A stretch of DNA of 38,422 bases from a virus (IMGVR_UViG_3300046007_005451:1-38422); one strand, 5' to 3'; counted from the first letter of the stretch, positions 494-34,946 are shown. The notes: generated by a model from the letters alone, not told the origin. A program made the numbers and translations.

Positions 494-499
494 CGAAAA

Positions 500-520
500 A
501 ACCCCGCACTCGGCGGGGTT
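500..520 (-). terminator. Intrinsic terminator ending the leftward early operon
   Basis: Stem AACCCCGC / GCGGGGTT with a five-base loop. Read on the minus strand it is followed by TTTTTTCGTTTT, a strong U-tract; the plus side has a weaker T-rich tail. It separates the leftward early genes (4656 to 627) from the HNH and late genes. Confidence 0.8.
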
Positions 521-568
521 CGTGTTTGTTTAGTGCGCAAAACTCAACACTAGCGAAAAGATGGTATC

Positions 569-1138: not shown

Positions 1139-1426
1139 CTATCCTTGCGTAAAGTCTTCTAGCCTATATTCGACGGTCGGCGGGGTTCTTTCGCTGTAGG
1201 TAAGGGACAGCGTCCGCGCATAACTAGCCACGTATTGACGCCTTACGCCGGGGGGTTCGCTAATCGGGTTGAATCGAATCGTCTCGTATTCGGGCTCGAC
1301 ACCCAGGCTTATCGTGTGTAATCGCGCGTCGCCCCGCTCTATCCGGTCGGCTAGACCACGCAAAGCGGCGACCGCGGCGGCGACGTTTTCATCAATCGCC
1401 TTTAACGCAGGATTAGGCTTTCTCAT
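1139..1426 (-). CDS. Hypothetical protein, 95 aa
   Basis: Unrecognised protein of 95 residues. The N-terminal half (about 8-40) is Ala-rich and predicted helical; the C-terminal half holds short alternating strand-like segments. Its ATG overlaps the stop of the upstream gene in an ATGA arrangement, so it is translationally coupled to the sigma-region-4-like protein at 1423-1863 and may assist it. No motif, signal peptide or membrane segment is visible. Confidence 0.7.
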   Translation of the reverse strand: MRKPNPALKAIDENVAAAVAALRGLADRIERGDARLHTISLGVEPEYETIRFNPISEPPGVRRQYVASYARTLSLTYSERTPPTVEYRLEDFTQG

Positions 1427-1863
1427 TCAGACCTCGCACAAAGACGATACGCCAAGCGGTAGTCGCTCGCCCGCACCTCGGCGTCGCTCTGGTGATTACC
1501 GAAAAGCGCATAGTCGAGTTGAATGTACATGTGCTTTAAACGTTCCGAGTACACTTCGCGCGTAATGCCTAGTACCTGGGCTTTCGACTTTTGCGGGCGG
1601 TTGTCGCTGTACTCCATCACCAACACTTGTCGATAGTATGTCGAAATACCGTCGATCAACTTATCAAGCGTTTTGATATGCGCGGGTACTTCTTGCGCGA
1701 CGAACGTGTCGGTGTTCCGGTTGCTCGTTTGCACCCGCTCGTTCGCAAAAGAGACCGAACGCGGAAAACCACCCTCGTTTCGATCTTTGTAGAAAAACGC
1801 GCGTTCGCGCAAGCGGTCTTTAATCCGGTCTAAGTTAATGCTGTCGTTTGCTTGTATCGTCAT
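1423..1863 (-). CDS. Sigma-region-4-like / antiterminator-Q-like regulator
   Basis: This 146-residue protein has a middle segment (about residues 68-115) with the pattern of small phage late regulators of the ArpU/RinA/Q-like type. A helix with YRQVLVMEYSDN resembles the sigma-70 region 4 entry (all pairs ... R.VL...Y), followed by QKSKAQVLGITREVYSERL, which reads as a helix-turn-helix. The N-terminal third is basic. It sits late in the leftward early operon, upstream of the control region at 417-626 and the late genes, exactly where a late activator or antiterminator would be placed. The regulator class is a family-level inference; the DNA or RNA target is unknown. Confidence 0.6.
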   Translation of the reverse strand: MTIQANDSINLDRIKDRLRERAFFYKDRNEGGFPRSVSFANERVQTSNRNTDTFVAQEVPAHIKTLDKLIDGISTYYRQVLVMEYSDNRPQKSKAQVLGITREVYSERLKHMYIQLDYALFGNHQSDAEVRASDYRLAYRLCARSE

Positions 1864-6335: not shown

Positions 6336-6752
6336 ATGAGTTTAGAACTAGCCATTAAAGAGAACACCGCCGCCGTCGAATCACTCGCGGCTTATTTGAA
6401 AAACCTTTTCACAACCGACCGTGCCGCCCTGGCATTGACGGCACACGTCGACACCGTCGTCGACACGAAAGTCGCCAAGACCGAAACGAAAACGGCAAAA
6501 AGCGAAACGGCACCCGCCCATAAGACTAATTTAACCGCGAAAACGGAAACACAAGCCGACGTCGCAGGGAAGTCCGTCGAAGCAAAGGTCGAAGTCGTTA
6601 CATACGAGGAACTGAAAAAAGCGATTGTCGCTTTCCAACAAGCGAACGGGCGCGAAAAAGCAATCGCCGCGCTTGCTTCCCTGGGTGTCGCGAAGGGCAC
6701 CGATTTAAAACCCGAACAATATGCCGAAGCGTTGGTATTGTTCACGGCTTAA
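6336..6752 (+). CDS. Two-domain hypothetical protein with Lys/Thr/Glu linker, 138 aa
   Basis: A helical N-terminal segment (1-40; AIKENTAAVESLAAYLKNLF) is joined through a low-complexity linker of repeated KTET/KSET units (about 45-85) to a helical C-terminal domain (about 92-138). The latter contains YEELKKAIVAFQQANGREKA and GVAKGTDLKPEQYAEAL. Comparable C-terminal ends (GR..A...L..LGV....L.P..Y) recur in small phage early proteins, recalled and not verified. The N-terminal segment could oligomerise. It ends just before the repeat protein. Function unknown. Confidence 0.72.
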   Translation: MSLELAIKENTAAVESLAAYLKNLFTTDRAALALTAHVDTVVDTKVAKTETKTAKSETAPAHKTNLTAKTETQADVAGKSVEAKVEVVTYEELKKAIVAFQQANGREKAIAALASLGVAKGTDLKPEQYAEALVLFTA

Positions 6753-6765
6753 GGCGGGTGAAAAC

Positions 6766-7620
6766 ATGAAACTCGATAAAGACCTTTTAAAAAGTTGGAA
6801 CCCGTGCGCCGACGGCTTCCAGTGGTTTCTGAAAAACTTCCCGCAAGGCGGTGACATCGCGGAAATTAACACCGCGCTTCGTGCGGAGCATCGATACGAC
6901 GATTCTAATTGGTTGACAAACCGCGTTTTTGAATCGTTCGTCGTTTCACCTGAAAACATCGCGAGCTATACGGACGACACGGTAAAAGCCACCTTGAAAG
7001 AAACCGAAGGCGCGGAGCAAAGCGCGTCGGGTTATTCCAGCACGGCAGCATCGTCGGGTAATTACAGCAAGGCAGCATCGTCGGGTTATTCCAGCAAGGC
7101 AGCATCGTCGGGTGAATCCAGCACGGCAGCATCGTCGGGTTATTCCAGCACGGCAGCATCGTCGGGTTATTCCAGCACGGCAGCATCGTCGGGTAATTAC
7201 AGCAAGGCAGCATCGTCGGGTGAATCCAGCACGGCAGCATCGTCGGGTGAATCCAGCACGGCAGCATCGTCGGGTTATTCCAGCACGGCAGCATCGTCGG
7301 GTAATTACAGCAAGGCAGCATCGTCGGGTTATTCCAGCACGGCAGCATCGTCGGGTTATTCCAGCACGGCAGCATCGTCGGGTAATTACAGCACGGCAGC
7401 ATCGTCGGGTTATTCCAGCACGGCAGAAGCAAAAGGCGAAAAAACGATCGCTATGGTCGCGGGCATAAATGGTCGTGCGAAAGTTGGTGTCGGCGGCGTT
7501 TTTGCACTTCCTTTCTTGGACGATAACGAAAAACTGCGCGTCGCGGTTGGTATTGAGGGCGAAAACATTGTCGCCGATACCTGGTATCGCGTAACAAACG
7601 GCGAATTGGTGCAAGCATGA
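6766..7620 (+). CDS. Repeat protein with 15 copies of a Ser/Ala-rich 9-mer
   Basis: A 284-residue protein in three parts. Residues 1-85 are a non-repetitive head (WNPCADGFQWFLKNFPQGGD). Residues about 88-222 are fifteen tandem 9-mers of the form SG-x-x-S-x-A-A-S. Residues about 223-284 are a tail with strand-like segments (KTIAMVAGINGRAK, GVFALPFLDDNEKLRVAVG, ADTWYRVTNGELV). Regular short repeats with small residues and a closing cap suggest a beta-solenoid. Similar SSG..S.AA proteins occur in phage and bacterial genomes without an assigned role, as far as I recall. The ATG at 6766 follows GGCGGGTG and avoids the overlap with the previous gene that an upstream start would give. The stop overlaps the next start. 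Confidence 0.85.
   Translation: MKLDKDLLKSWNPCADGFQWFLKNFPQGGDIAEINTALRAEHRYDDSNWLTNRVFESFVVSPENIASYTDDTVKATLKETEGAEQSASGYSSTAASSGNYSKAASSGYSSKAASSGESSTAASSGYSSTAASSGYSSTAASSGNYSKAASSGESSTAASSGESSTAASSGYSSTAASSGNYSKAASSGYSSTAASSGYSSTAASSGNYSTAASSGYSSTAEAKGEKTIAMVAGINGRAKVGVGGVFALPFLDDNEKLRVAVGIEGENIVADTWYRVTNGELVQA
7027..7431 (+). repeat. Tandem 27-bp coding repeat, 15 copies
   Basis: Fifteen back-to-back 27-bp units. They encode SGYSSTAAS (7, the last ending AEA), SGNYSKAAS (3), SGESSTAAS (3), SGYSSKAAS (1) and SGNYSTAAS (1). Units are almost identical at DNA level outside the variable codons, so expansion is recent and copy number is likely to vary by recombination or slippage. Confidence 0.95.
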
Positions 7621-21529: not shown

Positions 21530-24500
21530 TTAGTCCTCGACTGTTACGCGCATTGGTGCGTCGGAGTTGCCGTTAACCGCGTCGCCGATGCGGCGGGTGT
21601 TTTGGTTGCCAATCGCGCCGATTTCTTGAAGGCGTTGAACTTCCGCGGTGAGCGATTCGACGAGCGATTCGAGTCGTGCGTTTTGCAAATTCAAGGTCGC
21701 CGTCACGGGCGCGTCGAAAGATGTTGTCGTCGCTGGTGTTGCGGTGAGATTTGGCGACGCTGCGGGTGTTCGACCTTGGATTGCGGCGGCGAGGTTGTTT
21801 AATGCGGTTTGCACCGACAAAACGCTATTGTTCACGCCGTTAATCGCGTCGACTTGTTGCTTCGCAAGTGCTTCTTGCGCGTCGAGTGTTGCTAGTTGCT
21901 GGTTTGCGACCGCGAGCGCTTGTTCGGCGGCGTTTAGTTGCGGCACCGCGATTTCCTGCAATTGGCTTAACTTGCCCGCCATAACTAGCGCGGCGCGGTC
22001 GGCTTCGAATTGCGTCGTGTACTCTGTCGACGCGATGCCGTTGCGCACCGCTGCAATCGCGCTCGCGAGTTGGTTTTGTTCGGGTAGATAGCCCGTCGCT
22101 TTTGCGTTGGCGAGGGCGTTGTCTAAGAACGCATTGCCCGCAATCGCTTGCAAAGCTTTGGTGCTGTCGACCGAGTTGTAAATCGAATCGATTTGATCGC
22201 CCAACACCCCGAACACGCCTTTAATGCTGTTCACCGATTCTTGCGCGGCTTGCTTTATTACCGAAACGCGGGTGCGTTCTGTGTCAATCGCTTTTTGCAC
22301 CGCGCCGAGCGCTTCTTGTGTTGCTTGCTTCGCGTCTTCGGCGGCTTGTTGCTGGTTGCGGATCGCGACGATTTGGTCGAAGATCGAACGATTCGATTCG
22401 TCGAGTGCGGCGCGTTGACGGGCAAGCGCTTGCACCGCCGAGTCGGTCAAGCCGTTAAGTTGGTCTTGGAGCCCCGCGCGTTCCTGTGCCACCTGGGCGG
22501 CTTTTTGCGCCGCTGCGGCTTCGGCTTGGCGTTGCGCGTTGATCGCTTGTATTTGATCGAAAATGCCTTGATTCGATGCGTCGAGCGCTTCACGTTGGCG
22601 GGTGAGGGCTTGCGCCGCGGTGTCGGTGAGCGCGTTAAGTTGCTCTTGCAATCCGGTGCGCTCTTGTGCGATTTGCGATGTGCGTTGCGCCGCCGCTTCC
22701 TCGGCTTGGCGCTGTGCGGTCAATGCCTGGATTTGGTCGAAAATGCCGCGGTTCGATTCGTCAAGTGCTGCGCGTTGGCGTTCTAGTGCTTGCGTCGACG
22801 AATCCGTCAAGCCGTTAAGTCTGTCTTGCAACCCCGTGCGTTCTTGCGCAACTTGGGCGGCTTTCTGCGCGGCGGCTTCCTCGGCTTGTTTCTGCGCACC
22901 GAGCGCTTGGATTTGGTCGAAAATGCCTTGATTCGACGCGTCCAGTGCTGCGCGTTGACGTGCGAGCGCGTCGACTGCGGTGTCGGTGAGTGCGTTAAGT
23001 TGATCTTGCAAAGCCGTGCGCTCTTGCGCGATTTGGGTCGCCTTTTGTGCCGCTTGTTGCGCTGCTGCGTCCTCGGCTTGTTTCTGTGCCGATAGCGCTT
23101 GGATTTGGTCGAATATCCCACGGTTAGAAGCGTCGAGCGCGTCGCGTTGACGTGCGAGCGCTTGCGCTGCGGTGTCAGTTAATCCGTTAAGTTGGTCTTG
23201 TAAGGTGCCGCGTTCTTGTGCCACCTGTGCCGCTTTTTGTGCTGCTGCTTCCTCGGCTTGGCGCTGTGCGCTTAGCGCTTGGATTTGGTCGAAGATACCG
23301 CGATTCGATGCGTCCAGTGCTTCACGTTGACGCGCAAGCGCTTCGGTCGCGGTGCCCGTCATGCCGTTAAGTTGGTCTTGTAAAGACAAACGTTCTTGCG
23401 CGACCTGGGCGGCTTTTTGCGTCGCGGCTTCCTCGGCTTGGCGCTGCGCGGTGAGCGCTTGCACTTGGTCGAATAGCCCTTGGTTAGAAGCGTCGAGCGC
23501 TGCGCGTTGGCGTTCTAGCGCTTGCGCTGCGGTGTCGGTCAGTCCGTTGATTCTGTCTTGCAACGCCGCCCGTTCCTGGGCGATTTGCGCCGCCCGTTGC
23601 GCGGCTTCCTCTTGCGCTTGTTTCTGCGCGGCGAGTGCTTGCTCTTGGGCTTGCTTTTGAGCCGATAGCGCTTGGATTTGGTCGAAAATCCCGCGGTTCG
23701 ATGCGTCGAGCGCTTCGCGTTGACGGGCGAGCGCTTGCGCGGAATCACCTGTCAATGCGGCGAGTTGGTCTTGCAAATCGACGCGCTCTTGCGCCACCTG
23801 TGCCGCTCTTTGTGCCGCGGCTTCCTCGGCTTGGCGTTGCGCGCTTAGTGCTTGGATTTGATCGAAAATGCCTTGATTCGATGCGTCTAGGGCTTCGCGT
23901 TGACGTGCGAGCGCTTGGGTTGCGGTGTCGGTGAGTGCGTTAAGTTGGTCTTGCAATGCGCCGCGCTCTTGCGACACCTGGGCGGCGCGCTGTGCTGCGG
24001 CTTCCTCGGCGGCTTTCTGTGCCGATAGCGCTTGCACTTGGTCGAATATCCCGCGATTAGAAGCGTCGAGCGCTTCGCGTTGGCGCGATAACGCTTGCGC
24101 CGCGGTGTCGGTGAGCGCGTTAAGTTGGTCTTGAAGGGTGCCGCGTTCCTGGGCGATTTGCGCCGCCTTTTGTGTCGCGGCTTCCTCGGCTTGGCGTTGC
24201 GCGGTCAATGCCTGGATTTGGTCGAATATCGCGACGTTAGAAGCGTCGAGCGCTGCGCGTTGACGGTTCAGGGATTGCGCCGCGGTGTCGGTGATCGCGT
24301 TAAGTTGGTCTTGCAACGCGCCGCGTTCCTGGGCTACTTGCGCGGCTTTCTGCGTTGCGGCTTCCTGGGCTTGCTTTTGAGCCGATAGCGCTTGGATTTG
24401 GTCGAAAATACCTTGATTCGATGCGTCTAGGGCTTCGCGTTGACGTGCGAGCGCTTGCGCCGCGCTGTCGGTCAATGCGTTAAGTTGGTCTTGAAGTGCG

Positions 24501-27500
24501 ATTCGCTCTTGGGCGATTTGGGTCGCCTTTTGCGTTGCCGCCGCGGCTTGTTGCGCTGCCGCTTCCTCGGCTTGTTTCTGCGCGACGAGGGCTTGCACTT
24601 GGTCGAAGATACCGCGGTTCGATGCGTCCAGGGCTTCGCGTTGGCGGTTCAGGGCTTGCGCTGCGGTGTCGGTGAGCGCGTTAAGTTGGTCTTGTAAGCT
24701 CGCGCGCTCTTGTGCCACCTGGGCGGATTTCTGCGCCGCTGCTTCCTCGGCTTGTTTCTGCGCACCGAGCGCTTGAATTTGGTCGAAAATCCCGCGGTTC
24801 GATTCGTCCAGGGCTTCGCGTTGGCGGTTCAGAGCTTGCGCTGCGGTGTCGGTCAATGTGTTTAGTTGCGCTTGGAGTGCTGCGCGTTCTTGTGACACCT
24901 GGGCAATACGTTGCGCCGCGGCTTCCTCGGCGGCTTTTTGTGCCGATAGCGCTTGGATTTGGTCGAACAATGCCACGTTAGAAGCGTCGAGCGCCGCGCG
25001 TTGACGTTCGAGTGATTGCGCGGCGGTGTCGGTGAGTGCGTTAAGTTGCTCTTGCAAGCCCGAACGTTGTTGCGCCACCTGGGCGGATTTTTGCGCCGCT
25101 GCTTCCTCGGCTTGTTTCTGTGCGCCGAGCGCTTGGATTTGGTCGAAGATACCGCGATTCGATTCGTCTAGCGCTTCGCGTTGGCGGTTTAGGGCTTGCG
25201 CGGCGGTGTCGGTCAATCCGTTAAGTTGGTCTTGCAATCCGGTGCGCTCTTGCGCGATTTGTGCCGCCCGTTGCGCTGCGGCTTCCTCGGCGGCTTTCTG
25301 CGCGGTCAATGCCTGGATTTGGTCGAAAATCGCGACGTTCGTTTGTTCGAGCGCGAAGCGTTGCGCTTGCAATCGCTGTTCGCTCGTCATCGTCAATTCG
25401 TTTAGTTGCGATGTCAAAGCCAAACGCTCGTCGCTCGCCGCTTTTTGAATTGCCGCGATTTGTTGTTCGGCGTCTTGCTTTTCTTTTAGTGCTTGGATTT
25501 GGTCGAAAATCCCGCGGTTCGATTCGTCAAGCGCTGCGCGTTGACGTTCGAGGGATTGCGCGGCGGTTTCGGTAAGCGCGTTAAATTGATCTTGCAAAGC
25601 CGTGCGCTCTTGCGCCACCTGTGCCGCTCTTTGCGCTGCCGCTTCCTCGGCTTGGCGTTGCATGGTGAGCGCTTGGATTTGGTCGAAAATGCCGCGATTC
25701 GATGCGTCCAGGGCTTCGCGTTGACGTGCAAGCGCTTGCGCACCTGTGTCGGTTAATGCGTTTAATTGTTCTTCGAGGTTTGCGCGTTCGCGAGCGACGT
25801 CCGCCGCTTGCTTGATCGTTGTTCCTGTTTCGACGAGAACACCGTTTAGGCTCGCGGTGTAGTCTGTCACCGCTTTAAATTGCGGCGCGATTGCGATAAG
25901 TTCCGCATACATTTTCGCACCGGACTCGGTCGACAAATCGAGCGATTGCACCAAGTTTTTAAACTCGGGCACGGTGTCGACGGTGGATTTGCCAAGTCGT
26001 GCCATTGTTTCGGCGACGATGTCGACGGCGGGCTTCATCTTCTCGGCTTCCGACAAGAAGTTTTCAGCGAAGAACGACGCGCCCGATAAGAACTTATCAA
26101 AGCCGCCCGACAATTCGATTAAGCGTTGTGCATCACCCGCACCGACGACGCTAGTCGATAGTTTTTCGAGACCGATTGCGGAAATTGTCTGATTAACCCC
26201 GACAAGCCCCGTCGCTAGGCGAGCCATTGCCGCCGCCGATGTCTCGCCTTCTTTTCGTAGCGATGCGATATTCGGGATTAAATCCGCCGCGATTAAATCG
26301 GCAATTCCCCCAAACACCCCCGCGAGGGCTTTCTCGGTTTCTTCTTGCGTTTTGCCGAGTGTTAAATTTATCGAGTCGTTACGCTTTGCGATTTCGTCCG
26401 CGTTCAATCCGAGGGATTTTGCGAAGTCCGCGGCGGCGGTTTTAACCGCGTCGTAGCTGCCGTTTAATAGCTTGAGAAGTTCCTTATCGCTGGTTAAGCT
26501 TGCGGTGTCGGTGTACGACTTGCCGTCGCGGGTCGTTGCGACGGAGTCTTTCAAGCCGTACGACCACACGTCGGAGCGGTCGGAGCGGAACAAACCGCCC
26601 TGCTGCGTCCACGGTTGATTGCGCATTAGGTTGTCGGTGCCGAGGGTGCCCGTTACGGTTTGCCCGCCGAACTCTTTTTCTTTCATGCCGAAAAGCCGCG
26701 GGGCGATACCGAAGATCGCCGCGCCAGCGTCCGCCGACACCCCGTTAAGCCGATACTCGCCGTTGATCGCCTTCATACCCTGGAAAGCCGCAATCGCCGC
26801 GGCAACGTAGGGCATTGCGCCCGCAATCGACGCACCTGTCGAACCCGCGCCCGTGAGTGCCACGGTGCCCGAAGATGCCGTGCCTAACGTGCTGCCCGTC
26901 AGCGCCGCCGCTTCCGCGGTTAATGCGCTCGCTGTCGTTGCGGAACTTAGACCGAGCGATTGCCCGAGCGAACTCATTGCAAACGACGTAAAAGTGCCCG
27001 ACGATGCCGCGCCCGCCGCCGCGAAACCTTCCCATAACGACTTGCCCGTCGAGATTGCGTTAAATGCTTGCCCTAGCGGGTTCGTCGCCGCGCTCGCGTT
27101 GCCCGCGATGCCACCAATAACGCCAGTCAAAACACCTTGAATTGCAAGTTTTAAAACGGTCGTTTTGAATAGATTTTTGATGCCGCCCCAAAAGCTTTCG
27201 AAAAAGCCTTTGCCCGCTTCGAAACCGCGATAAAGCGAGTCGCTTAAGCCGTTGTAAATATCGGTATAAAAATTAGTCCAGGTCTCTTGTTGCGCTTTGA
27301 TGCCCGCGAGGTTCTTTGCGTCCGCGGCGATTTGTTCCGCTTTTAGCTTCGCTTCATTTGCACCCGCGCTAGAGATTTTGTTCAATGCGCGTTCGTTTTC
27401 GATTGCTGCGAGTTGCTTTTGCAATTCGAGTTCGATTTTGTATTGCGCAAGCGCCGTCGCGCGTTCGGTCGACGACTGCCCAAGCAAAGACAATTCGAGC

Positions 27501-29275
27501 TTTGCAAGTTCCGCGCTTTCCTGGTATCCACGCGCCCAATCGTCGAGCGACGATTTCAAGCGGTTTTCGGCTTGTAATTGGTCGGTAAAGCCCGTAATTA
27601 TGTCTTTTGTGTTTTTCTTCACCGCGTCGGCGTAAGCCGTGTGTGATTTGGTGAGTTCTTCGTTTATCCGCTTTTCAGCGTCACCCATGGCTTTATATTC
27701 GGCTTTGCGAACTTGCCAGGCGAGCGATTGATCCTCGGCGGCTTTCAGTGCCTTTTCCACGCCGCTCTTGCGAATGATCGCGATTTGTTCTTCGATTTCT
27801 TTTTCGCCCACCCCCGCGGCGATACCCGCGGCGCGCACCTTGGCGATTTCGCGACGGAGTTTTTCCTCTTTGCTTAAGTTCTTTTCGACCACCCCGCCCC
27901 ACTCGATACCCGCTTGAACTTGCTTGTTCGCGGCTTCCTGGGCTTTCGCTTCCTCTTTTCTCGCGTCGACTTTCGAGCGCAAAATGCGGATCATTCGCTC
28001 GTTTTGGTCGAGCTCGACTTGATAACGGGCGGAGAGGGTCGTGTCGCCGTTCGCTTCCGCGTCTTTCTTAAGCTTCTCGAATTGCTCGCGTTGCTTGAAT
28101 AGCTTTGCGATTTTTTGGTCGGCGGTCGGATCGTCGAAAACTCGCTTTGCTGCGTCGAGCGCGTCCGATGTCGCTGTTTTGATGCGAATCCATCCGCGTT
28201 CCCAATCGGTGAGCGTTTCGCTTACTTTGCCCGCTTGGTTCACCAACGCGTTCGCGTAAGTCTCTTGCGCCAGGCGAGCGGCGTCCGCCTTCTTGCCTTG
28301 GTCTTCTAGTGCTTTGATTTGCTCGTAAATTTCGAGCGTTAAGAATCGATATTTTTCGTTGAGCGCTTCGATTGATTTTGTCGGGCTTTTGCCTAAGTCT
28401 GAAAACGCCTTGACGGTGTCCTCGACCGCGAGCCCGAGAAGTTGTTGCCCTTTGATCGCTGCCCGCGCTGCATCGTCTAACACCGACATGGAGACCTTGC
28501 CCGACGATACCAAGCCGTTTAACGCTTCCGCGGCGAGTGATTGCGAGCCGATGCCCACGTCGCTAATTCGCTGCGCGGCGGTCATAAGTTGGTCGGTTGT
28601 CGTGCCCGCTGCGTTGCCGCTTAAGATAATCGACTTCGCGAATGCTTGCGATTGTTCGTTCGATTGCGAATAGGCGTACCCAAGCGCGGCGACTGCTGCA
28701 CCCGCCGCGGTAATCGGGTTGATTAAGCCGACGAGATAAGAACCCATTGCGCGGGCGGCGTTGCCTGCCCCGCCGAACATATCTTTTAACTGTCCGCCTT
28801 GTTGCAAAAATACAGTGAGGGGTTTTTGCCCGCCCTGAATGCTCGTCACAATGTCGGTAAATTGCGCGGGAACGTTGCGCATCGCGGCGGCGGTTTGTGC
28901 TGCTGATATGCCGACGCTTTTTTGCGCACCTTCGACGGCTTTCAATTGTTCCAAGTACGGGCGGAGTACGTCGGCATTGATGCCGCGCTGTTGTGCCAAT
29001 ACTTCGAAATATTTTGCGCTCGACTTCGAACCCGATTCCATCGCCGCCGTCGTGCGTTGAATGGAGCCGATCATGTTGTTTGTTGCGCGGTCGATCTTCG
29101 TCGCCGCTGCGGCGCCCGCTTCGCCGACGTTGCCGAGGCTGTCGGCGGTTTCTTTATTCGCTCTTTTGGCTACTTGCGATAAGTTGTCGATTGTTCGCGC
29201 TATAGGTGCGACGCCTTCTTGCACCTTCGAGCCGTCGAGACCAACCTCAATCGTTGCGCTTAACTTATCGGACAT
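21530..29275 (-). CDS. Tape measure protein with 19 x 60-residue repeats
   Basis: A 2581-residue tape measure. The N-terminus (about 1-350) is of the lambda-type TMP_2 family (NVPAQFTDIVTSIQGGQKPL, FLQQGGQLKDMFGG), with a hydrophobic segment near 175-200. Around 690-725 a Tape_meas_lam_C-like part occurs (GFFESFWGGIKNLFKTTVL). Residues about 1158-2322 are nineteen near-identical 60-residue units with heptad-like AAQ/QAEEAA stretches that predict coiled coil. The C-terminal 260 residues are a helical end. The protein sets tail length inside the tube and is injected with DNA. Length is far above the usual 700-1500 residues. Confidence 0.95.
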   Translation of the reverse strand: MSDKLSATIEVGLDGSKVQEGVAPIARTIDNLSQVAKRANKETADSLGNVGEAGAAAATKIDRATNNMIGSIQRTTAAMESGSKSSAKYFEVLAQQRGINADVLRPYLEQLKAVEGAQKSVGISAAQTAAAMRNVPAQFTDIVTSIQGGQKPLTVFLQQGGQLKDMFGGAGNAARAMGSYLVGLINPITAAGAAVAALGYAYSQSNEQSQAFAKSIILSGNAAGTTTDQLMTAAQRISDVGIGSQSLAAEALNGLVSSGKVSMSVLDDAARAAIKGQQLLGLAVEDTVKAFSDLGKSPTKSIEALNEKYRFLTLEIYEQIKALEDQGKKADAARLAQETYANALVNQAGKVSETLTDWERGWIRIKTATSDALDAAKRVFDDPTADQKIAKLFKQREQFEKLKKDAEANGDTTLSARYQVELDQNERMIRILRSKVDARKEEAKAQEAANKQVQAGIEWGGVVEKNLSKEEKLRREIAKVRAAGIAAGVGEKEIEEQIAIIRKSGVEKALKAAEDQSLAWQVRKAEYKAMGDAEKRINEELTKSHTAYADAVKKNTKDIITGFTDQLQAENRLKSSLDDWARGYQESAELAKLELSLLGQSSTERATALAQYKIELELQKQLAAIENERALNKISSAGANEAKLKAEQIAADAKNLAGIKAQQETWTNFYTDIYNGLSDSLYRGFEAGKGFFESFWGGIKNLFKTTVLKLAIQGVLTGVIGGIAGNASAATNPLGQAFNAISTGKSLWEGFAAAGAASSGTFTSFAMSSLGQSLGLSSATTASALTAEAAALTGSTLGTASSGTVALTGAGSTGASIAGAMPYVAAAIAAFQGMKAINGEYRLNGVSADAGAAIFGIAPRLFGMKEKEFGGQTVTGTLGTDNLMRNQPWTQQGGLFRSDRSDVWSYGLKDSVATTRDGKSYTDTASLTSDKELLKLLNGSYDAVKTAAADFAKSLGLNADEIAKRNDSINLTLGKTQEETEKALAGVFGGIADLIAADLIPNIASLRKEGETSAAAMARLATGLVGVNQTISAIGLEKLSTSVVGAGDAQRLIELSGGFDKFLSGASFFAENFLSEAEKMKPAVDIVAETMARLGKSTVDTVPEFKNLVQSLDLSTESGAKMYAELIAIAPQFKAVTDYTASLNGVLVETGTTIKQAADVARERANLEEQLNALTDTGAQALARQREALDASNRGIFDQIQALTMQRQAEEAAAQRAAQVAQERTALQDQFNALTETAAQSLERQRAALDESNRGIFDQIQALKEKQDAEQQIAAIQKAASDERLALTSQLNELTMTSEQRLQAQRFALEQTNVAIFDQIQALTAQKAAEEAAAQRAAQIAQERTGLQDQLNGLTDTAAQALNRQREALDESNRGIFDQIQALGAQKQAEEAAAQKSAQVAQQRSGLQEQLNALTDTAAQSLERQRAALDASNVALFDQIQALSAQKAAEEAAAQRIAQVSQERAALQAQLNTLTDTAAQALNRQREALDESNRGIFDQIQALGAQKQAEEAAAQKSAQVAQERASLQDQLNALTDTAAQALNRQREALDASNRGIFDQVQALVAQKQAEEAAAQQAAAATQKATQIAQERIALQDQLNALTDSAAQALARQREALDASNQGIFDQIQALSAQKQAQEAATQKAAQVAQERGALQDQLNAITDTAAQSLNRQRAALDASNVAIFDQIQALTAQRQAEEAATQKAAQIAQERGTLQDQLNALTDTAAQALSRQREALDASNRGIFDQVQALSAQKAAEEAAAQRAAQVSQERGALQDQLNALTDTATQALARQREALDASNQGIFDQIQALSAQRQAEEAAAQRAAQVAQERVDLQDQLAALTGDSAQALARQREALDASNRGIFDQIQALSAQKQAQEQALAAQKQAQEEAAQRAAQIAQERAALQDRINGLTDTAAQALERQRAALDASNQGLFDQVQALTAQRQAEEAATQKAAQVAQERLSLQDQLNGMTGTATEALARQREALDASNRGIFDQIQALSAQRQAEEAAAQKAAQVAQERGTLQDQLNGLTDTAAQALARQRDALDASNRGIFDQIQALSAQKQAEDAAAQQAAQKATQIAQERTALQDQLNALTDTAVDALARQRAALDASNQGIFDQIQALGAQKQAEEAAAQKAAQVAQERTGLQDRLNGLTDSSTQALERQRAALDESNRGIFDQIQALTAQRQAEEAAAQRTSQIAQERTGLQEQLNALTDTAAQALTRQREALDASNQGIFDQIQAINAQRQAEAAAAQKAAQVAQERAGLQDQLNGLTDSAVQALARQRAALDESNRSIFDQIVAIRNQQQAAEDAKQATQEALGAVQKAIDTERTRVSVIKQAAQESVNSIKGVFGVLGDQIDSIYNSVDSTKALQAIAGNAFLDNALANAKATGYLPEQNQLASAIAAVRNGIASTEYTTQFEADRAALVMAGKLSQLQEIAVPQLNAAEQALAVANQQLATLDAQEALAKQQVDAINGVNNSVLSVQTALNNLAAAIQGRTPAASPNLTATPATTTSFDAPVTATLNLQNARLESLVESLTAEVQRLQEIGAIGNQNTRRIGDAVNGNSDAPMRVTVED
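22310..25800 (-). repeat. 180-bp tandem coding repeat, 19 copies, in tape measure gene
   Basis: Unit pattern: ERxxLQDQLNALTDTAAQAL, RQREALDASNRGIFDQIQAL, then xAQKQAEEAAAQKAAQVAQ. I count nineteen units. Three have small insertions in the Ala/Gln part: unit 7 (+7), unit 12 (+11) and unit 15 (+4 residues). Units 4 and 6 are almost the same, which points to recent duplication or gene conversion. Units 2 and 3, near the start, are the most divergent. Confidence 0.95.
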
Positions 29276-29296: not shown

Positions 29297-29318
29297 AAGC
29301 CCGCTAGTCGGCGGGCTT
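29297..29318 (-). terminator. Terminator-like hairpin between tail chaperone and tape measure
   Basis: Stem AAGCCCGC / GCGGGCTT, six-base loop, followed on the minus strand by TTTTTCTTTATT. It overlaps the stop codon of the frameshifted chaperone frame. It would reduce transcription into the huge tape measure gene unless antitermination operates. Confidence 0.75.
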
Positions 29319-30037
29319 ATTTAAAAAATGAAGTGCTGCGCGTTCTAGTGTCGAAACATCGCTTTCGAGTTCGTTGCGCTCGTCCGCGTCTAGCTTCATG
29401 CGGTCGAGCCTTGCGAATAACACGTTGTAATCGAGTCCGATGTAACCTTGAAACGCTGTCCGCCATTGGGTAGAGAGCGAACAAAAAACCGAAAACGCTG
29501 TTTCGTTGTCGGGAAAAACTTCTAAAATCTCACTCGCGAAATCTTCACGCGTTAACCCCGCTTCGGCGAGTTCTGCGTCGGTGGGGTCTTTCGTGTAGAA
29601 CTTTTCCGCGAGTGCTTCTAGTTTTTTATGCGTTCCTCGGCGACCGCGTTCGCGTAGGTGCTTGAAATTGCTTTCAGCGAGCCTGGGAACTCGTTTTCCA
29701 AACGCATTAAGTTTTCTTTGCTTAAGTCGTCTTCGATGTCCCAACCCTTCGCGATTTTCAAAACGTGCTCGGCGCTGTTCTTGCCTGATTTCTCGTAGAG
29801 TTCAGACCAAAACGAATCAGACATCGATTCGATAGAACTGTTATCGTCGCCGCGGCTTGCTTCGAAATCGGCTTTCGCGCGCTTGATGCCTTCGTCGGCG
29901 AGTTCTGCAAACTCTTTTTTGGTGCGGTATTGGTAAGTCACTTCGAGGTCGAGGGCTTTGTCGTCGACCGTGTGCAAAGTGATTGTGCGTTTGAAGTCTT
30001 TCGGTTGTGCGCCGAATTTAAATTTTTGATTTGCCAT
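29304..30037 (-). CDS. Tail assembly chaperone fusion (gpGT-like) made by -1 frameshift
   Basis: The product is read from ATG 30037 through the heptamer at 29621-29627 and then in the -1 frame to 29304, about 244 residues. The downstream part (LEALAEKFYTKDPTDAELAE ... ERAALHFLNKPAD) has no start or ribosome site of its own that fits. It matches the T domain role of lambda gpGT: the long form bridges tape measure and tail tube subunits during assembly. Position between tube and tape measure genes is diagnostic. Confidence 0.85.
29618..30037 (-). CDS. Tail assembly chaperone, short form (gpG-like)
   Basis: A 139-residue protein starting MANQKFKFGAQPKDFKRTIT. It has the look of phage TAC proteins: a strand-rich N-terminus (ALDLEVTYQYRTKKEFAELA), then helices. 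ATG 30037 is chosen because it begins the family-like sequence; a longer frame to 30106 would run through the hairpin. It ends with the zero-frame stop just after the slippery site. Confidence 0.85.
   Translation of the reverse strand: MANQKFKFGAQPKDFKRTITLHTVDDKALDLEVTYQYRTKKEFAELADEGIKRAKADFEASRGDDNSSIESMSDSFWSELYEKSGKNSAEHVLKIAKGWDIEDDLSKENLMRLENEFPGSLKAISSTYANAVAEERIKN
29621..29627 (-). promoter_or_regulatory. Programmed -1 frameshift site A AAA AAC
   Basis: Zero-frame codons ATA AAA AAC followed at once by TAG give the classical heptamer A AAA AAC in correct phase. Slipping by -1 leads into CTA GAA GCA, the frame of the chaperone extension. A GC-rich downstream stretch may add a pause. 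Confidence 0.88.
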
Positions 30038-30077
30038 GGTATTTATCTTTCGCGAGATAGTTAAAAAAGCCTGTGCC

Positions 30078-30111
30078 CGTCGGTGCTTCCCGCGAAAGGA
30101 AGACACCGACG
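30078..30111 (-). terminator. Stem-loop after tail tube gene, attenuator-like
   Basis: Imperfect stem CGTCGGTG-CTTCC / GGAAG-ACACCGACG with a 7-base loop. On the minus strand GGCTTTTTTAAC follows about ten bases later. It sits between the tail tube stop and the chaperone start and would allow more tube than chaperone mRNA. Confidence 0.6.
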
Positions 30112-30143
30112 AGTCAGTGCCAGGGTTGAGCGCTTAGCTCGGA

Positions 30144-30788
30144 TTAAGACGCGTAACGGTTCGGACGACCTTGCAACGCGATACCGGCTTTTACCGACAT
30201 CAAATTGCCTTTTGTCATCGACGGCGTTTCGTCGAATGCAAAAATGCCGTTGTACAAAATCACGCCGCCCGCGGGCATTGACGCGCGCAAAGCCGTCACC
30301 GCGCGAGATTGCGCGGTCGTTTTCAATGCTTGATAGCCCGCCAAAGTCGGATCGTCGGCAATTTCCAACGCCAGGGATTGCGCGCTAGTTGTTGTCGGGA
30401 TTTGGCTATCAAAATTTTGTTCCAAGAACGAGAAAGTTTGATACTGCGGATCGCCACCGGAACTTGTGCAACCGATGATTTGAGTGATTTGCGTCCAAGT
30501 GTTGATTTTGCGGATTGTTCCGGTGCCCGAACCTGTCGGGAACGAAACGACGTTCGTCGTGTCGAGACCTTCGGCGACGATGGTTGTGCCCGTCACTGAT
30601 TTGGCGCGGAACACACGATTATTCGCGCTAGACCAACCGCTAACGAACTCGAAATAATCACCGTTCGCGAGGGTGTTCGTTACTGTTAAAACCGCTTCGG
30701 CGGCGTTCGACGCTGCGGTCACTGTGAGATTGCCAGCGTATGCGGTCGCGATTGCGAGCACAACGCCATTCGGTAATGAAACTGCCAT
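30144..30788 (-). CDS. Major tail tube protein
   Basis: A 214-residue protein, strand-rich with small residues (TVTAASNAAEAVLTVTNTLA, GDYFEFVSGWSSANNRVF), then a DNA-tube-like SLALEIADDPTLAGYQALKT and GGVILYNGIFAFDETPSMTKG. This is the phage tail_3/tube family pattern. It lies between the tail completion gene and the chaperones as in HK97/lambda-like phages. It is bracketed by terminator-like hairpins on both sides, fitting a highly expressed cistron. Confidence 0.88.
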   Translation of the reverse strand: MAVSLPNGVVLAIATAYAGNLTVTAASNAAEAVLTVTNTLANGDYFEFVSGWSSANNRVFRAKSVTGTTIVAEGLDTTNVVSFPTGSGTGTIRKINTWTQITQIIGCTSSGGDPQYQTFSFLEQNFDSQIPTTTSAQSLALEIADDPTLAGYQALKTTAQSRAVTALRASMPAGGVILYNGIFAFDETPSMTKGNLMSVKAGIALQGRPNRYAS

Positions 30789-30815
30789 TTTTATTTCCTT
30801 TCAAGGAATGAAAAA

Positions 30816-30885
30816 GCCGCCCGAAGGCGGCAAGTTGTTGCGCCCGAAAGGGCAAATAAAAAAGCCGCCCAAAAAAGGCGGCTTT
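30816..30885 (-). terminator. Three consecutive hairpins upstream of the tail tube gene
   Basis: Hairpin 1: AAAGCCGCC / GGCGGCTTT at 30861-30885, with T-rich flanks on both strands. Hairpin 2: GCCC-GAAA-GGGC at 30842-30853. Hairpin 3: GCCGCC-CGAA-GGCGGC at 30816-30831, followed on the minus strand by TTTTTCATT. The first and third look like intrinsic terminators for leftward transcripts. Confidence 0.75.
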
Positions 30886-30902
30886 CGTAAATCGTTAAGC
30901 TG

Positions 30903-31247
30903 TTAAGACCACAAAGAAAAATCTTGAATCGTTCCGCGGGCGTTCGTTGTCTCGTCATAATCGGCGACGACGCCCGATTCAATTTTCGCGAGGAGCGGCG
31001 CGGCGACCATGATGTTTTCGACCTGCCGCGCTAGTGTCGAAGCTTCCGCGCGGGTTGCCGCCCAAACTTTCACCATGAAACGGGCGTTTTTCTTATCTGA
31101 GAACTCGGCACCTACAAAATTGACGGGCTTCCCGCCTGTCTGTTGATAGGTGATGTAGGGCATTTGAGTGCCCTCGGGTGCCACGTCGGGGAACACTCGA
31201 CTCGCCACCAAGCCCGAGAGCGCGGCGTAAATACTAGCTTCGACCAT
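30903..31247 (-). CDS. DUF3168 tail completion protein (gp17-like)
   Basis: A 114-residue protein matching DUF3168: MVEASIYAALSGLVASRVFP, the typical MPYITYQQTGG strand and a C-terminal DYDETTNARGTIQDFSLW. Family members terminate the tail tube at the head-proximal end. Its start overlaps the gp10-like gene. A set of terminator-like hairpins follows. Confidence 0.88.
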   Translation of the reverse strand: MVEASIYAALSGLVASRVFPDVAPEGTQMPYITYQQTGGKPVNFVGAEFSDKKNARFMVKVWAATRAEASTLARQVENIMVAAPLLAKIESGVVADYDETTNARGTIQDFSLWS

Positions 31248-31632
31248 TTTTTATATCTTCCAATTTCTCGCCCAGGCGTTTACGTGCCGCGTCCATCGCT
31301 TCGACGATCTTCGCGTCGTAAGTCGGCGCGATAAAAGGTTTCGCGGGTGTTCTTTTCGTGCCTAGCTCGGCAAAGTGCCAATGAGGGGCTTTTTTCTTAT
31401 TCACGCCGATGGAGTACACCTGCGCGCCGTTAACCGATTGTTTTTCGTTGTGGTACTGGTAAAGCGCACTTTTTAAACGCCCCGTTTTAACCGGAACGCG
31501 CAAATTTAATTCGCTGTAAATCACTTTTGACGCTGCGAACGCCGCGGGGCGCAACGCTTTGTCGACCACCTCGTCGGCGAACTTTTCGAGGTTCGCTTGC
31601 AAAGCCGCGGTGTCAAATTTGATCGTAATCAC
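31234..31632 (-). CDS. HK97 gp10-like neck/tail protein
   Basis: About 132 residues; family signature near RVPVKTGRLKSALYQYH and HFAELGTKRTPAKPFIAP. The GTG at 31632 is preferred: AGGTGG lies just upstream and the GTGA overlaps the stop of the adaptor gene. A TTG at 31647 would give five more residues. Family members take part in joining head and tail. Confidence 0.88.
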   Translation of the reverse strand: MITIKFDTAALQANLEKFADEVVDKALRPAAFAASKVIYSELNLRVPVKTGRLKSALYQYHNEKQSVNGAQVYSIGVNKKKAPHWHFAELGTKRTPAKPFIAPTYDAKIVEAMDAARKRLGEKLEDIKNGRS

Positions 31633-31952
31633 GCGACCACCTTGCAAACTAGATCGACATAAACTTTTCGACTGTCGGGCAATACCGCATCGATTTCGAA
31701 CACCGTCGACCCGAAGACCGCGCGCATACCCGCTTCGATGTCGGTGCGATAGCGCAAGCGAATCGACACCTTCACGACCGACGTTTGCGCGTCTGCTTTG
31801 ATCGTTTGCAAGCCGTTTAAATACTTAACATTCGCCCAAACGTCCGCATCGAGCGGCACCCAATCGCCGACAACTTCTTGCCCGAGCGCGTCGCGCGTCG
31901 TGCCTGGTTGCTGGATCGTTACCAGGTCGTTTAGGGTTTGCGCAAAGGTCAT
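31629..31952 (-). CDS. Phage head-tail adaptor (head closure protein)
   Basis: A 107-residue protein of the head-tail joining family: LNDLVTIQQPGTTRDALGQ, GDWVPLDADVWANVKYLNG and RLRYRTDIEAGMRAVFGSTV. It closes the head after packaging and docks the tail. It overlaps genes on both sides by 4 bp. Confidence 0.9.
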   Translation of the reverse strand: MTFAQTLNDLVTIQQPGTTRDALGQEVVGDWVPLDADVWANVKYLNGLQTIKADAQTSVVKVSIRLRYRTDIEAGMRAVFGSTVFEIDAVLPDSRKVYVDLVCKVVA

Positions 31953-32497
31953 AATTCGGAAACCTTTAAACGCGCCAAAATGCCGTCGACAAAACTGTTT
32001 TTTACTGCGGGCGGGTTGCTCGAGTCGAATACCTCGACCAACTTCGCTAAAATGTAAGCCTTCATCGCCGAGGGTGTCGCTGTGTCGCTGGTGCCATAGC
32101 CCGCAACGTATTCAACGATCACCGCGTCGTCACGCTCAAAGGTCTCGGGAAACTCGCCGAAAGTGCGGATCGTCGCGAAATACTCGGTCGTATAAAGCGA
32201 ATAATTAGACGGGTCGAGGGTTTGCAAAGTGTTCGTCGTGTCGTAATAGCGCACGGACGACACCGAGACAATCGGCAAACGCGGGAGCCGACCGAGGTCG
32301 TCGAACGACTCGCAAAGCGCTTGCCAGGTTTGCTGCATCACCGAACGCCCCGTCAAATGTTCGGCATGTTCGGTGATTGCGCGCACCCAGGCGTCGACTA
32401 TCGAATCAAGCGCCGAGCCGTTGACGCGCAAAGCGACTTTCGCGTCGGCGAGAGACACCGCGAGCGCGGTCGGTGCTGTGATTCGTTTCGTTAACAT
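31949..32497 (-). CDS. Head-tail connector, HK97 gp6-like
   Basis: A 182-residue protein with the gp6-like pattern: SLADAKVALRVNGSALDSIV, ITEHAEHLTGRSVMQQTWQA, LPIVSVSSVRYYDTTN and a C-terminal helical end. It forms the ring under the portal. It overlaps the preceding gene by one base and the adaptor gene by 4 bp. Confidence 0.9.
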   Translation of the reverse strand: MLTKRITAPTALAVSLADAKVALRVNGSALDSIVDAWVRAITEHAEHLTGRSVMQQTWQALCESFDDLGRLPRLPIVSVSSVRYYDTTNTLQTLDPSNYSLYTTEYFATIRTFGEFPETFERDDAVIVEYVAGYGTSDTATPSAMKAYILAKLVEVFDSSNPPAVKNSFVDGILARLKVSEL

Positions 32498-32823
32498 TAT
32501 TCGCCTTTTGCTTCGATAGCTTTGCGAGCGTAAGCGACCGCGTCGTCGTGGTCGTCGATTGCGCCTTGCGCTTTGCCGACTTGGATTTCGCGGGCGGTCA
32601 ATGCCACCAATTCACCCGCCGAACCGAAATCGCAATCGCGCAAGCAAACCGCGTCGACTGTTTCGCCCGTGTCTTCGGCGCCTTCGCCTAGTGCGTTTTC
32701 TGCGTCGGCTTTAGTTGCGGCGGCGGTTAGTTCCGCGCTCGCCACTTGGGCGGCGGCGGCTTTCTCTGCTGCTGCTTGTTCTTGCGCGAGCTTCGCCGCG
32801 GCTTTTTGTGCTGTTGTTGCCAT
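32497..32823 (-). CDS. Ala-rich small head-module protein, 108 aa
   Basis: Residues 1-45 are an Ala/Lys/Glu-rich helix (AAAKLAQEQAAAEKAAAAQV); residues 58-108 are a compact part (CLRDCDFGSAGELVALTARE, DDHDDAVAYARKA). Such proteins often follow the capsid gene and may be head decoration, connector or scaffold-like; no exact family was identified. The gene follows the capsid terminator at 32861-32890. Confidence 0.72.
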   Translation of the reverse strand: MATTAQKAAAKLAQEQAAAEKAAAAQVASAELTAAATKADAENALGEGAEDTGETVDAVCLRDCDFGSAGELVALTAREIQVGKAQGAIDDHDDAVAYARKAIEAKGE

Positions 32824-32860
32824 GGTCTTTTTTATCCTTATTTCGCGGGATAGAAAAACA

Positions 32861-32890
32861 AAAAGCGGAACACCGAAGCGCCCCGCTTTT
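32861..32890 (-). terminator. Terminator-like hairpin after the major capsid gene
   Basis: Stem AAAAGCGG / CCGCTTTT with a 14-base loop; on the minus strand TTTTTGTTTTTC follows. It would keep capsid mRNA more abundant than that of the connector genes. Confidence 0.7.
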
Positions 32891-32907
32891 CCTTTTTAGC
32901 TCGACAA

Positions 32908-34104
32908 TTACGTCGCGCTGTTTGCGTAGTATTTCACGGCATGCACGTCGAGCAAATTACCGCCCGAACGTTGCCAACCGCAGAAACCGACTTGATTATT
33001 CAACGCGAACGCGGAGTCGTCGAAGCGGCGAATCTGCGTTGTGTTGTTCACGTCGCGAATGAAGTATTTCGAGAAGTCACCAAACGCAATAGATTTCGCG
33101 TTTGCTGCCATTGTCGCCATGTCATCATTAACCACCACGCCAAAGCCGAGCAACGTGTCGGGAGTACCTTGCACCAAGCTAGTTTCCCAAATCGGGCGCC
33201 CTGTCGTGTCTTTCAACTTAGAAACGACCGCAATTGACAAATCGTTCAGCATAAAGCGAGCATTGCCGCGATATGCACGATTGACGGAGTGTTTCAAGTC
33301 GACCAAGTCGTCATAAATCACCGTCGCCGTTTGCCCTGTCGTGCCTGTTTTGCCTAGGGTTGCGCGAGGTATTACGCCGTCGGGTTGTGTCGTGCCTGTG
33401 CCGACTGTAAAGTGCGTATTTTGAATACGCGCGATACGTGTCGCCAAACGGTCTATCACATAAGCGACGATGTCGATGCCGCTGTCTTGGATCAATTCCA
33501 AAGGCAAAGCGATTTTGTTCGACGTGTAGAAAAACGGGTTCAAAGACACATTGCCGAACACGATGTCGGCGGCGTTAGCTGCTGCGTTCTGTGCAACAAT
33601 CGCGCCTACGTCGGCGGTGCCGTCGGAGGTCGGGAACGTTAACGGGTTGCCGCCGTCAGTCGGCATTAACGTCGCCACGTCACGCATCGCGCCGTATGCC
33701 TTCAAACGGTCGATCACCATTGACGCGATTAAACTTGGAACGGTAAAGCCGCCCTCGGTCGTGGTCGTCGTCGACATCGCATTGCGCACCGCTTGGAGCT
33801 TGTCGCCTTCCAAGTTGAAACCGTTGCGAATGTAAAGGGCAATCGCGTCTTTAACGTCGATCAAGCCTTCGGATTTCTTCGACGCTTGGTTTGTTGCGTC
33901 CTTGAAGAAATTGTCGGCTTCGATATGGCGTTGCTGCTCGATAGCTTTCATTTGAGAATTAGCGTTGCTAATTTGGTCGAGTAAGCCGTCGTAATTGGCT
34001 TGGTCTTCTTTCGTCCAAATTTGATCGCCCTTGTCGGCTAAAATATTTTTTGCTTGGCGCGCTAAATTTGCCACTTTCTCGCGCAGTGCTTGGAGATTAT
34101 CCAT
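32908..34104 (-). CDS. Major capsid protein, HK97 fold
   Basis: A 398-residue protein. Residues about 1-105 are the delta domain, helical scaffold-like coiled coil (NLQALREKVANLARQAKNIL). The mature shell domain starts after NAMSTTTTTEGG and contains AMRDVATLMPTDGGNPLTFP, FTVGTGTTQPDG and GFGVVVNDDMATMA. Cleavage near residue 105-110 by the neighbouring ClpP-like protease is expected. AGGAACC precedes the ATG. Hairpins lie on both sides of the gene. Confidence 0.95.
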   Translation of the reverse strand: MDNLQALREKVANLARQAKNILADKGDQIWTKEDQANYDGLLDQISNANSQMKAIEQQRHIEADNFFKDATNQASKKSEGLIDVKDAIALYIRNGFNLEGDKLQAVRNAMSTTTTTEGGFTVPSLIASMVIDRLKAYGAMRDVATLMPTDGGNPLTFPTSDGTADVGAIVAQNAAANAADIVFGNVSLNPFFYTSNKIALPLELIQDSGIDIVAYVIDRLATRIARIQNTHFTVGTGTTQPDGVIPRATLGKTGTTGQTATVIYDDLVDLKHSVNRAYRGNARFMLNDLSIAVVSKLKDTTGRPIWETSLVQGTPDTLLGFGVVVNDDMATMAANAKSIAFGDFSKYFIRDVNNTTQIRRFDDSAFALNNQVGFCGWQRSGGNLLDVHAVKYYANSAT

Positions 34105-34129
34105 TTTTCAGGTTCCTATTAAATGAAAA

Positions 34130-34147
34130 AACCGCCTTGCGGCGGTT
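34130..34147 (-). terminator. Terminator-like hairpin between protease and capsid genes
   Basis: Stem AACCGCC / GGCGGTT with a TTGC loop, followed on the minus strand by TTTTTTCATTT. It ends only about 25 bp before the capsid ATG, leaving little room for a promoter behind it. Confidence 0.78.
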
Positions 34148-34196
34148 CGTTTTGAAAGTGTCCGACTTTCGGCGGATTCGTTGCGCGAGAGCGCTT

Positions 34197-34946
34197 CTAA
34201 ATTAGGGCTAGATGTAATCGATTTTGATTGTGTTGAGTCGCGCTTACTTGCTCGGGTGTCGGCACCTCGGGCGGTGTTGCTTTGTTCTCGGGGGATACCT
34301 CGGGCGCTTTCGGTGCGTTCTTGTACGCCGCCAAGTTCCACGCGTTCGCGGTGCCTTGCTTGCCTGTCGCAATCGAATCGACGAAACCGCCGTCGAGGGC
34401 TTCTTGTGCTGTCATCCAGGTTTCGGCGTCCATCATTGCGACGATTTCCTCGGCGGGTTTGCCTGTCTTGGTCGTGTAATCGTTCACGATTGCGAGTTCA
34501 ATTTTTTCCAACAGGTCGGCGGTTTCGCGCAATTCTGTCTTATCACCCCAAGCGACCCCGCTTGCGTTGTGGATCATAAACATAGCGCCTTCGGACATTT
34601 CCACCGTGTCGCAAGCGAGCGCAATGCTCGTTCCCGCACTCGCGCAAAGCGAGTCGATATGTGCGGCGGTCTTGCCGTCAAAGCGTCGCAAAGCCGCCAT
34701 AATCGCGCGGGCTTCGAATACGTCACCGCCTGGGGTGTTAATGTAGACGTGCAAGGTGTCGGCACCCTGGGCGCTGGTGATCGCTTCGGCGACCGTTTGC
34801 GCATTGACGCCCCAATAGGAATCGATCACGTCGTAAATGTAGAGCGACGCGTCGAACGATTTTTCGTTCGTTGCCGTCTTTGTGAAATTAAGCGGCTTGC
34901 CGATTAGGGCTTTATTGCTCGCATATAGCTTGTGCATTTGTTTCAT
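34197..34946 (-). CDS. Prohead protease, ClpP-like (S14)
   Basis: A 249-residue protein of the phage ClpP-like protease family. The oxyanion-type strand is VYINTPGGDVFEA; the nucleophile is S103 in LCASAGTS, with H126 (FMIHNAS) and a likely D156. It would trim the delta domain of the capsid protein and possibly itself. The ATG overlaps the portal stop by 4 bp. The C-terminal 50 residues are Pro/Glu-rich and variable. Confidence 0.93.
   Translation of the reverse strand: MKQMHKLYASNKALIGKPLNFTKTATNEKSFDASLYIYDVIDSYWGVNAQTVAEAITSAQGADTLHVYINTPGGDVFEARAIMAALRRFDGKTAAHIDSLCASAGTSIALACDTVEMSEGAMFMIHNASGVAWGDKTELRETADLLEKIELAIVNDYTTKTGKPAEEIVAMMDAETWMTAQEALDGGFVDSIATGKQGTANAWNLAAYKNAPKAPEVSPENKATPPEVPTPEQVSATQHNQNRLHLALI

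Follow-up and report, generated by a model that had tools for sequence, protein, structure and literature searches.

Terminators inside a phage late operon are described for the P22-like Salmonella phage L, where their roles are stated to be unknown and antitermination is suggested but left open (PMC8022706). In the pLS20 conjugation operons, which use conAn processive antitermination, internal terminators are said to curb spurious transcription (PMC8955417). Structured RNA is also linked to translation initiation, in that S1 binds H-type pseudoknots, one of which anchors the 30S subunit on tisB mRNA (PMC7708055). Here we analyzed the late operon of the viral genome IMGVR_UViG_3300046007_005451:1-38422 (the window, meaning the whole stretch of DNA studied, a complete IMG/VR record of 38,422 bp). 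Between the stop codon of its head maturation protease gene and a terminator-like hairpin (III) ahead of its major capsid gene lies a conserved, previously uncatalogued RNA that is predicted to fold into a small hairpin (I) and an H-type pseudoknot (II). This arrangement bears on two puzzles: how hundreds of capsid subunits and few portals are obtained from a single message, and why late operons hold terminators. The late operon is on the minus strand; if the two ends of the record are taken as joined, it begins near the left edge and resumes from the right edge. The gene order of the window (primase, Q, HNH, terminase, portal, protease, capsid, tail) is the same as that of Variovorax phage VarioGold. 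The protease-capsid junction contains the following features.

34197-34946, minus strand: ClpP-type head maturation protease gene (PF00574, 1.5e-24; PHROG head maturation protease, 6e-69)
34183-34194, minus strand: hairpin I (GCGC-UCUC-GCGC), 2 nt past the protease stop codon at 34199-34197
34154-34176, minus strand: H-type pseudoknot II, with UCCG at 34176-34173 pairing to loop CGGA at 34164-34161, and a stem of 34170-34165 with 34159-34154
34129-34148, minus strand: terminator-like hairpin III with T-tract, upstream of the capsid gene (folding free energy, dG, -13.0)
32908-34104, minus strand: major capsid protein gene (PF05065, E=9e-65)

We regard it as almost certain that I and II belong to a real RNA element with a pseudoknot. 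In an alignment of 66 distinct sequences (A7), 90.6% of cells were paired, and cells with double changes numbered 116, compared to 30.5 in shuffled alignments and 4-18 when the partners were slid. Fitting this alignment to the stem structure biases it in favor of the stem; the knot helix lay outside the model. Changes on both sides were present in 5 of the 6 stem pairs of II, and its knot helix was 97.5% paired with four C-G to A-U compensations. Pseudoknot II thus shows both a loop that pairs with a segment outside the hairpin and compensatory changes in that pairing, as expected of the H type. In hairpin I, the UCUC loop core is invariant in 73 aligned relatives, and the 5-bp helix is 83% paired, again with compensatory changes. 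Coding readthrough or frameshifting from the protease into the capsid gene was rejected on inspection, because loops and spacers differ in length by single bases among phages and the frames close.

A covariance model of I+II matched the window at 34198-34151 with 53.6 bits. The model finds one copy per genome, and its full-score matches are always at the protease-capsid junction; its E-values are rough, most loci are metagenomic fragments, and kin sequences inflate the counts. A first pattern scan that was independent of the capsid gene returned 29 stretches, of which those scoring with the model were all at the protease-capsid junction and the remainder were chance matches. No Rfam 15 family matched the I+II element in a covariance-model search, no true element was present among the 80 loci listed by a pattern scan of genome contigs (best E 0.011), and 300 Burkholderiales genomes yielded a single match with a mispaired stem. 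Likewise, we found no account of this RNA in the open-licence literature.

By contrast to I+II, which is confined to one junction at full score, a pattern for II alone revealed 24 more loci without capsid or protease homologues, several of which are close relatives of each other. Because this pattern fixes the knot bases, the independent evidence consists of the stem, which is perfect in 22/24, and the context. At these loci, II often begins at the stop codon of the preceding gene or follows another hairpin, and the start codon is mostly 17-29 nt downstream, with a Shine-Dalgarno (SD) sequence in between. The genes that follow include those for a filamentous major coat protein, a gp2.5/Enc34-type single-stranded DNA-binding protein, and HU. 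A joint alignment of 24 sequences from the capsid and other contexts (A8) had 100% of its cells paired. The knot-pattern counts are small and point the right way: 29 matched (CCG:CGG), 4 compensated (ACG:CGT), and 1 mismatched (ACG:CGG). Three of the four compensated matches have perfect stems, two of these three in a new context, and the single mismatched one has an imperfect stem. A BLAST search of the non-capsid loci against named phages returned no match. One contig with a copy of II also carries an Rfam RT-15 RNA (L353:1016-1206, E=3e-34).

Because II recurs in phages ~20 nt ahead of unrelated genes, some of which are expected to be in high demand, we propose that II acts on the downstream message. 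The unrelated genes at these other loci also make autoregulation by the capsid protein through II unlikely. Moreover, the steady distance from II to the start codon makes a role in translation or mRNA stability likelier than capsid-specific regulation or antitermination. Action on translation of the downstream gene is our tentative choice, somewhat under even odds, from sequence and position. More speculatively, II might be a widespread phage module of the 5' untranslated region (UTR), new to description and present in filamentous as well as tailed phages, where it would enlist a host factor that they have in common (ribosome/S1 or a nuclease) for high expression of chosen operon cistrons. II may be a general phage device to control single genes within operons. 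A compact, strongly covarying pseudoknot at a near-fixed start-codon distance in unrelated phages can be put to a direct test and might serve as a portable part for expression.

These contexts also bear on a different explanation, in which I, II, and III act as barriers to nucleases at mRNA boundaries, shielding the 3' end of a terminase-to-protease message and/or a processed capsid 5' end. In that case, the T-tract would be merely terminator-like, and expression would be graded through stability. The elements do begin at the upstream stop codon and finish ahead of the next SD, and many relatives have a hairpin after the capsid gene, with or without a T-tract. Nevertheless, the near-constant distance from II to the start codon in non-capsid contexts points to translation initiation, and the T-tract directly after III, superfluous for a stem with a purely stabilizing role, is kept in 71 of 83 gaps. 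We consider this explanation unlikely, but worth keeping in mind.

The second component of the locus is a series of terminator-like hairpins. The original prediction listed seven on the minus strand around the capsid and tube genes and upstream of HNH, giving the 3' ends of the stems as their coordinates, and we found all seven where they had been placed. In addition to III, these are contained in the following features.

32860-32891, minus strand: terminator-like hairpin 3' of the capsid gene (dG -18.5; folding z -4.65)
30816-30886, minus strand: gap before the tube gene, beginning with terminator T1 at 30886-30860 (dG -17.8)
30842-30853, minus strand: hairpin H2 of the same gap
30816-30831, minus strand: terminator T3 of the same gap (dG -11.2)
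30144-30788, minus strand: tail tube protein gene (PF08813, 3e-50)
30047-30121, minus strand: tube-chaperone gap, with a long stem at 30121-30069 and U6 (folding z -4.0)
29297-29318, minus strand: terminator-like hairpin in the gap from the chaperone extension to the tape measure gene (dG -13.9)
499-521, minus strand: terminator-like hairpin upstream of HNH, candidate tR'-like (dG -14.7)

Six of the seven (34148-34129, 32891-32860, T1, T3, 29318-29297, and 521-499) are strict sites, in which a G+C-rich stem is followed directly by a T-tract, as in intrinsic terminators. The seventh, predicted at 30078, is the long stem of the tube-chaperone gap, which is imperfect and has TTTTTT immediately 3' of it. 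Site counts, which exceed chance modestly, were rejected as proof of terminators. A lenient scan gave 61 sites at 19.4-38.4 kb compared to 45.5 ± 7.1 in shuffles, and 38 compared to 39 in the other half of the window, which is close to chance. Strict sites at 29.2-34.25 kb numbered 5 on the sense strand, compared to 0.6 (maximum 4) in 60 dinucleotide shuffles; these counts are not decisive because the antisense strand has as many (6). The hairpins are settled by position and conservation rather than by counts.

Conservation was assessed with capsid homologues taken from viral contigs. Relatives whose capsid is at least 50% identical provided 83 distinct protease-capsid gaps. A strict hairpin and T-tract preceded the capsid start in 71/83 gaps on the sense strand and in 6/83 on the antisense strand, compared to 0/83 within the capsid gene and 1/83 within the protease gene. 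The distance from this stem to the ATG had a median of 20 nt (interquartile range, 19-22), and stem sequences of the terminators vary widely among phages. Before the tube gene, strict terminators were present in 16/16 gaps of relatives, where four entries come from the window and three contigs nearly identical to it, and the T1-H2-T3 arrangement recurs; some rows in the other gap counts are near-identical as well. The frequencies were 26/52 after the capsid gene (antisense, 19), 6/17 in the tube-chaperone gap, and 5/12 before the tape measure gene (antisense, also 5). VarioGold has strict terminators in its Q-HNH gap, before and after its capsid gene, and before its tube gene. Conservation thus supports the hairpins at the capsid and tube genes strongly and the one before the tape measure gene weakly; termination at these hairpins is a prediction. 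Terminator-like hairpins with T-tracts also occur inside the protease coding sequence, at its 3' end, at L210:6554-6573, L211:6663-6682, and in L035 and L036.

The positions of the terminators at the capsid and tube genes would also fit attenuation, in which partial terminators set graded levels of head and tail proteins and processive antitermination is unnecessary; partial termination is named as one option for the intra-operon terminators of phage L (PMC8022706). We consider this improbable, because a terminator right before the capsid gene would reduce the product that is needed most, and because relatives encode antitermQ proteins. In the window, 24 nt separate hairpin III from the capsid ATG. 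No promoter fits in this space, which implies that capsid transcripts must read through III.

The operon head supplies candidates for the components of such readthrough.

1423-1863, minus strand: candidate Q-type antiterminator gene, in the same position as Q in VarioGold, L210, and L211
598-608 and 571-581, minus strand: two copies of the 11-bp palindrome TTGTGCCACAA, the sole exact copies in the window

In relatives with the same RNA, the Pfam family Phage_antitermQ is matched at the operon head in L211 (E=2e-6) and, narrowly missing the family cut-off, in L210 (E=1e-5), and in both of these the antitermQ gene is followed by a terminator and then HNH. A terminator upstream of HNH is present in 7/7 genomes that cover this stretch, including the window. 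As in a lambda-type Q system, a tR'-like terminator thus heads the operon ahead of the late genes, downstream of a putative promoter. The copies of TTGTGCCACAA are 27 bp apart, with hairpin 521-499 located 50 bp downstream, and the pair is a possible late-promoter control region, either an operator or a Q-binding element. The protein encoded at 1423-1863 gave a marginal Sigma70_r4 match (E=0.14) and, in hhalign, a co-linear alignment with three Q-type proteins that fell short of significance (E 0.048, probability 1%). Only near-identical relatives of it were found, and its AlphaFold model was unusable (predicted local distance difference test score, 48). The protein is a candidate for the antitermination factor by its place at the operon head, and its sequence is weakly Q-like.

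The antitermQ genes in relatives and the forced readthrough of III plausibly fit processive antitermination, and Q-type readthrough of the terminators is probable from the sequence. The original prediction held that a single leftward late transcript would need antitermination or would be graded by attenuation; the former option gains from these points and from the missing promoter space, but the prediction overlooked the I+II RNA. The hairpin that it placed 3' of the protease gene as a terminator is present, but termination alone does not explain a gap that also carries a conserved pseudoknot RNA.

Our favored explanation, to which we assign a probability of about 45%, combines Q-type readthrough, terminators, and assistance of the downstream gene by II. 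A single promoter region near 560-610 would feed the whole late operon, and a Q-type factor would render polymerase resistant to termination. Polymerase without Q modification, arriving by read-through from prophage surroundings or from cryptic starts, would be halted by the terminators at the capsid and tube genes, ahead of the strongest structural genes. Hairpin I would close off the protease cistron directly past its stop codon. Pseudoknot II would then act on the message downstream of it, most likely as a structure immediately 5' of the SD that binds 30S/S1 or is protective, and would give the capsid cistron high, independent expression.

Several observations weigh against this explanation. 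The case is built on sequence evidence, and the protein at 1423-1863 is a candidate for Q by position, with weak Q-likeness. The I+II element is retained where III has been lost (L023, L035, L036, L250, and others), and the two may therefore do separate jobs. Hairpin I is absent from L263-L266, and pseudoknot II is absent from L243 and VarioGold. In a clade comprising L012, L234, L237, L239, L240, L251, L259, and L067, III is absent and a T-tract directly follows the stem of II, which may itself serve as the terminator hairpin there. Finally, most of the other genes that follow II in non-capsid contexts have no assigned function, and several lack known abundance.

Retention of I+II without III also argues against the idea that I+II is an RNA antiterminator like put of phage HK022, which would load onto polymerase to pass III and later terminators. 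This idea draws on the presence of two neighboring folded elements directly upstream of a terminator, and put RNA is itself two stem-loops that work without a phage protein (PMC9378689). However, I+II is located mid-operon as one copy per genome rather than near a promoter, it co-occurs with antitermQ genes, and II precedes single genes in other contexts. We judge a put-like role to be very improbable. Even less credible is release of I-II-III as a trans-acting 3'-UTR small RNA of ~75-90 nt. The folded modules do terminate in an intrinsic terminator, and the invariant UCUC loop core would suit a small RNA, but III is absent in 12/83 gaps and II at other loci is followed by an SD instead of a terminator.

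A separate structure may regulate the tail chaperone gene. The loop of the tube-chaperone hairpin (30098-30088) is complementary to the SD region of the chaperone gene (30057-30047; p ~0.002 compared to shuffles). Complementarity with different bases was computed for L028 and seen by eye in L034 and L035, which suggests sequestration of the SD in this gap. The chaperone open reading frame (ORF; 29618-30037, minus strand) ends in ATA AAA AAC TAG, so that a slippery A_AAA_AAC abuts the stop codon (29618-29620), and its -1 frame runs on to 29304 as the next ORF, comparable to programmed frameshifting of lambda G/GT. The tape measure gene (21530-29275, 2581 aa) contains a long array of 180-nt (60-aa) repeats at 22370-25773. 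In the early region, an ORF at 6721-7620 (plus strand) contains ~15 tandem 27-bp units at 7025-7426, which encode Ser/Ala-rich repeats such as SGYSSTAAS.

Among described RNAs, HK022 put resembles I+II in being nascent phage RNA with two structured elements, and it affects termination; it differs in being ~70 nt, V-shaped, and near early promoters, whereas II is a mid-operon pseudoknot (PMC9378689). The T4 gene 32 mRNA also has an H-type pseudoknot upstream of a phage gene start, but this one is bound by its own gene product and is 67 nt upstream, and the likeness is one of type and position (PMC3014915). The S1-binding pseudoknots, namely the tisB standby site and a ligand obtained by systematic evolution of ligands by exponential enrichment (SELEX), are like II in being of the H type near a translation start, with S1 binding by II hypothetical; the tisB site differs in being ~100 nt upstream (PMC7708055). 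At the level of the operon, VarioGold (OP296522) lacks pseudoknot II, its capsid protein is 46% identical, and its Q similarity is not detectable by BLAST, but it shares the gene order, an annotated Q, the four terminator places, and a hairpin I that abuts the protease stop codon. The late operon of Salmonella phage L, for which the available part of the report describes no conserved RNA ahead of the capsid gene, likewise has a predicted terminator inside a single-promoter operon of the Q type (gp23) (PMC8022706). The conAn system of the pLS20 conjugation operons differs in belonging to a Gram-positive plasmid and in using a protein and an RNA factor at the operon start; nevertheless, these operons are, like the late operon of the window, long operons with many internal terminators, which in pLS20 are passed only by modified polymerases (PMC8955417).

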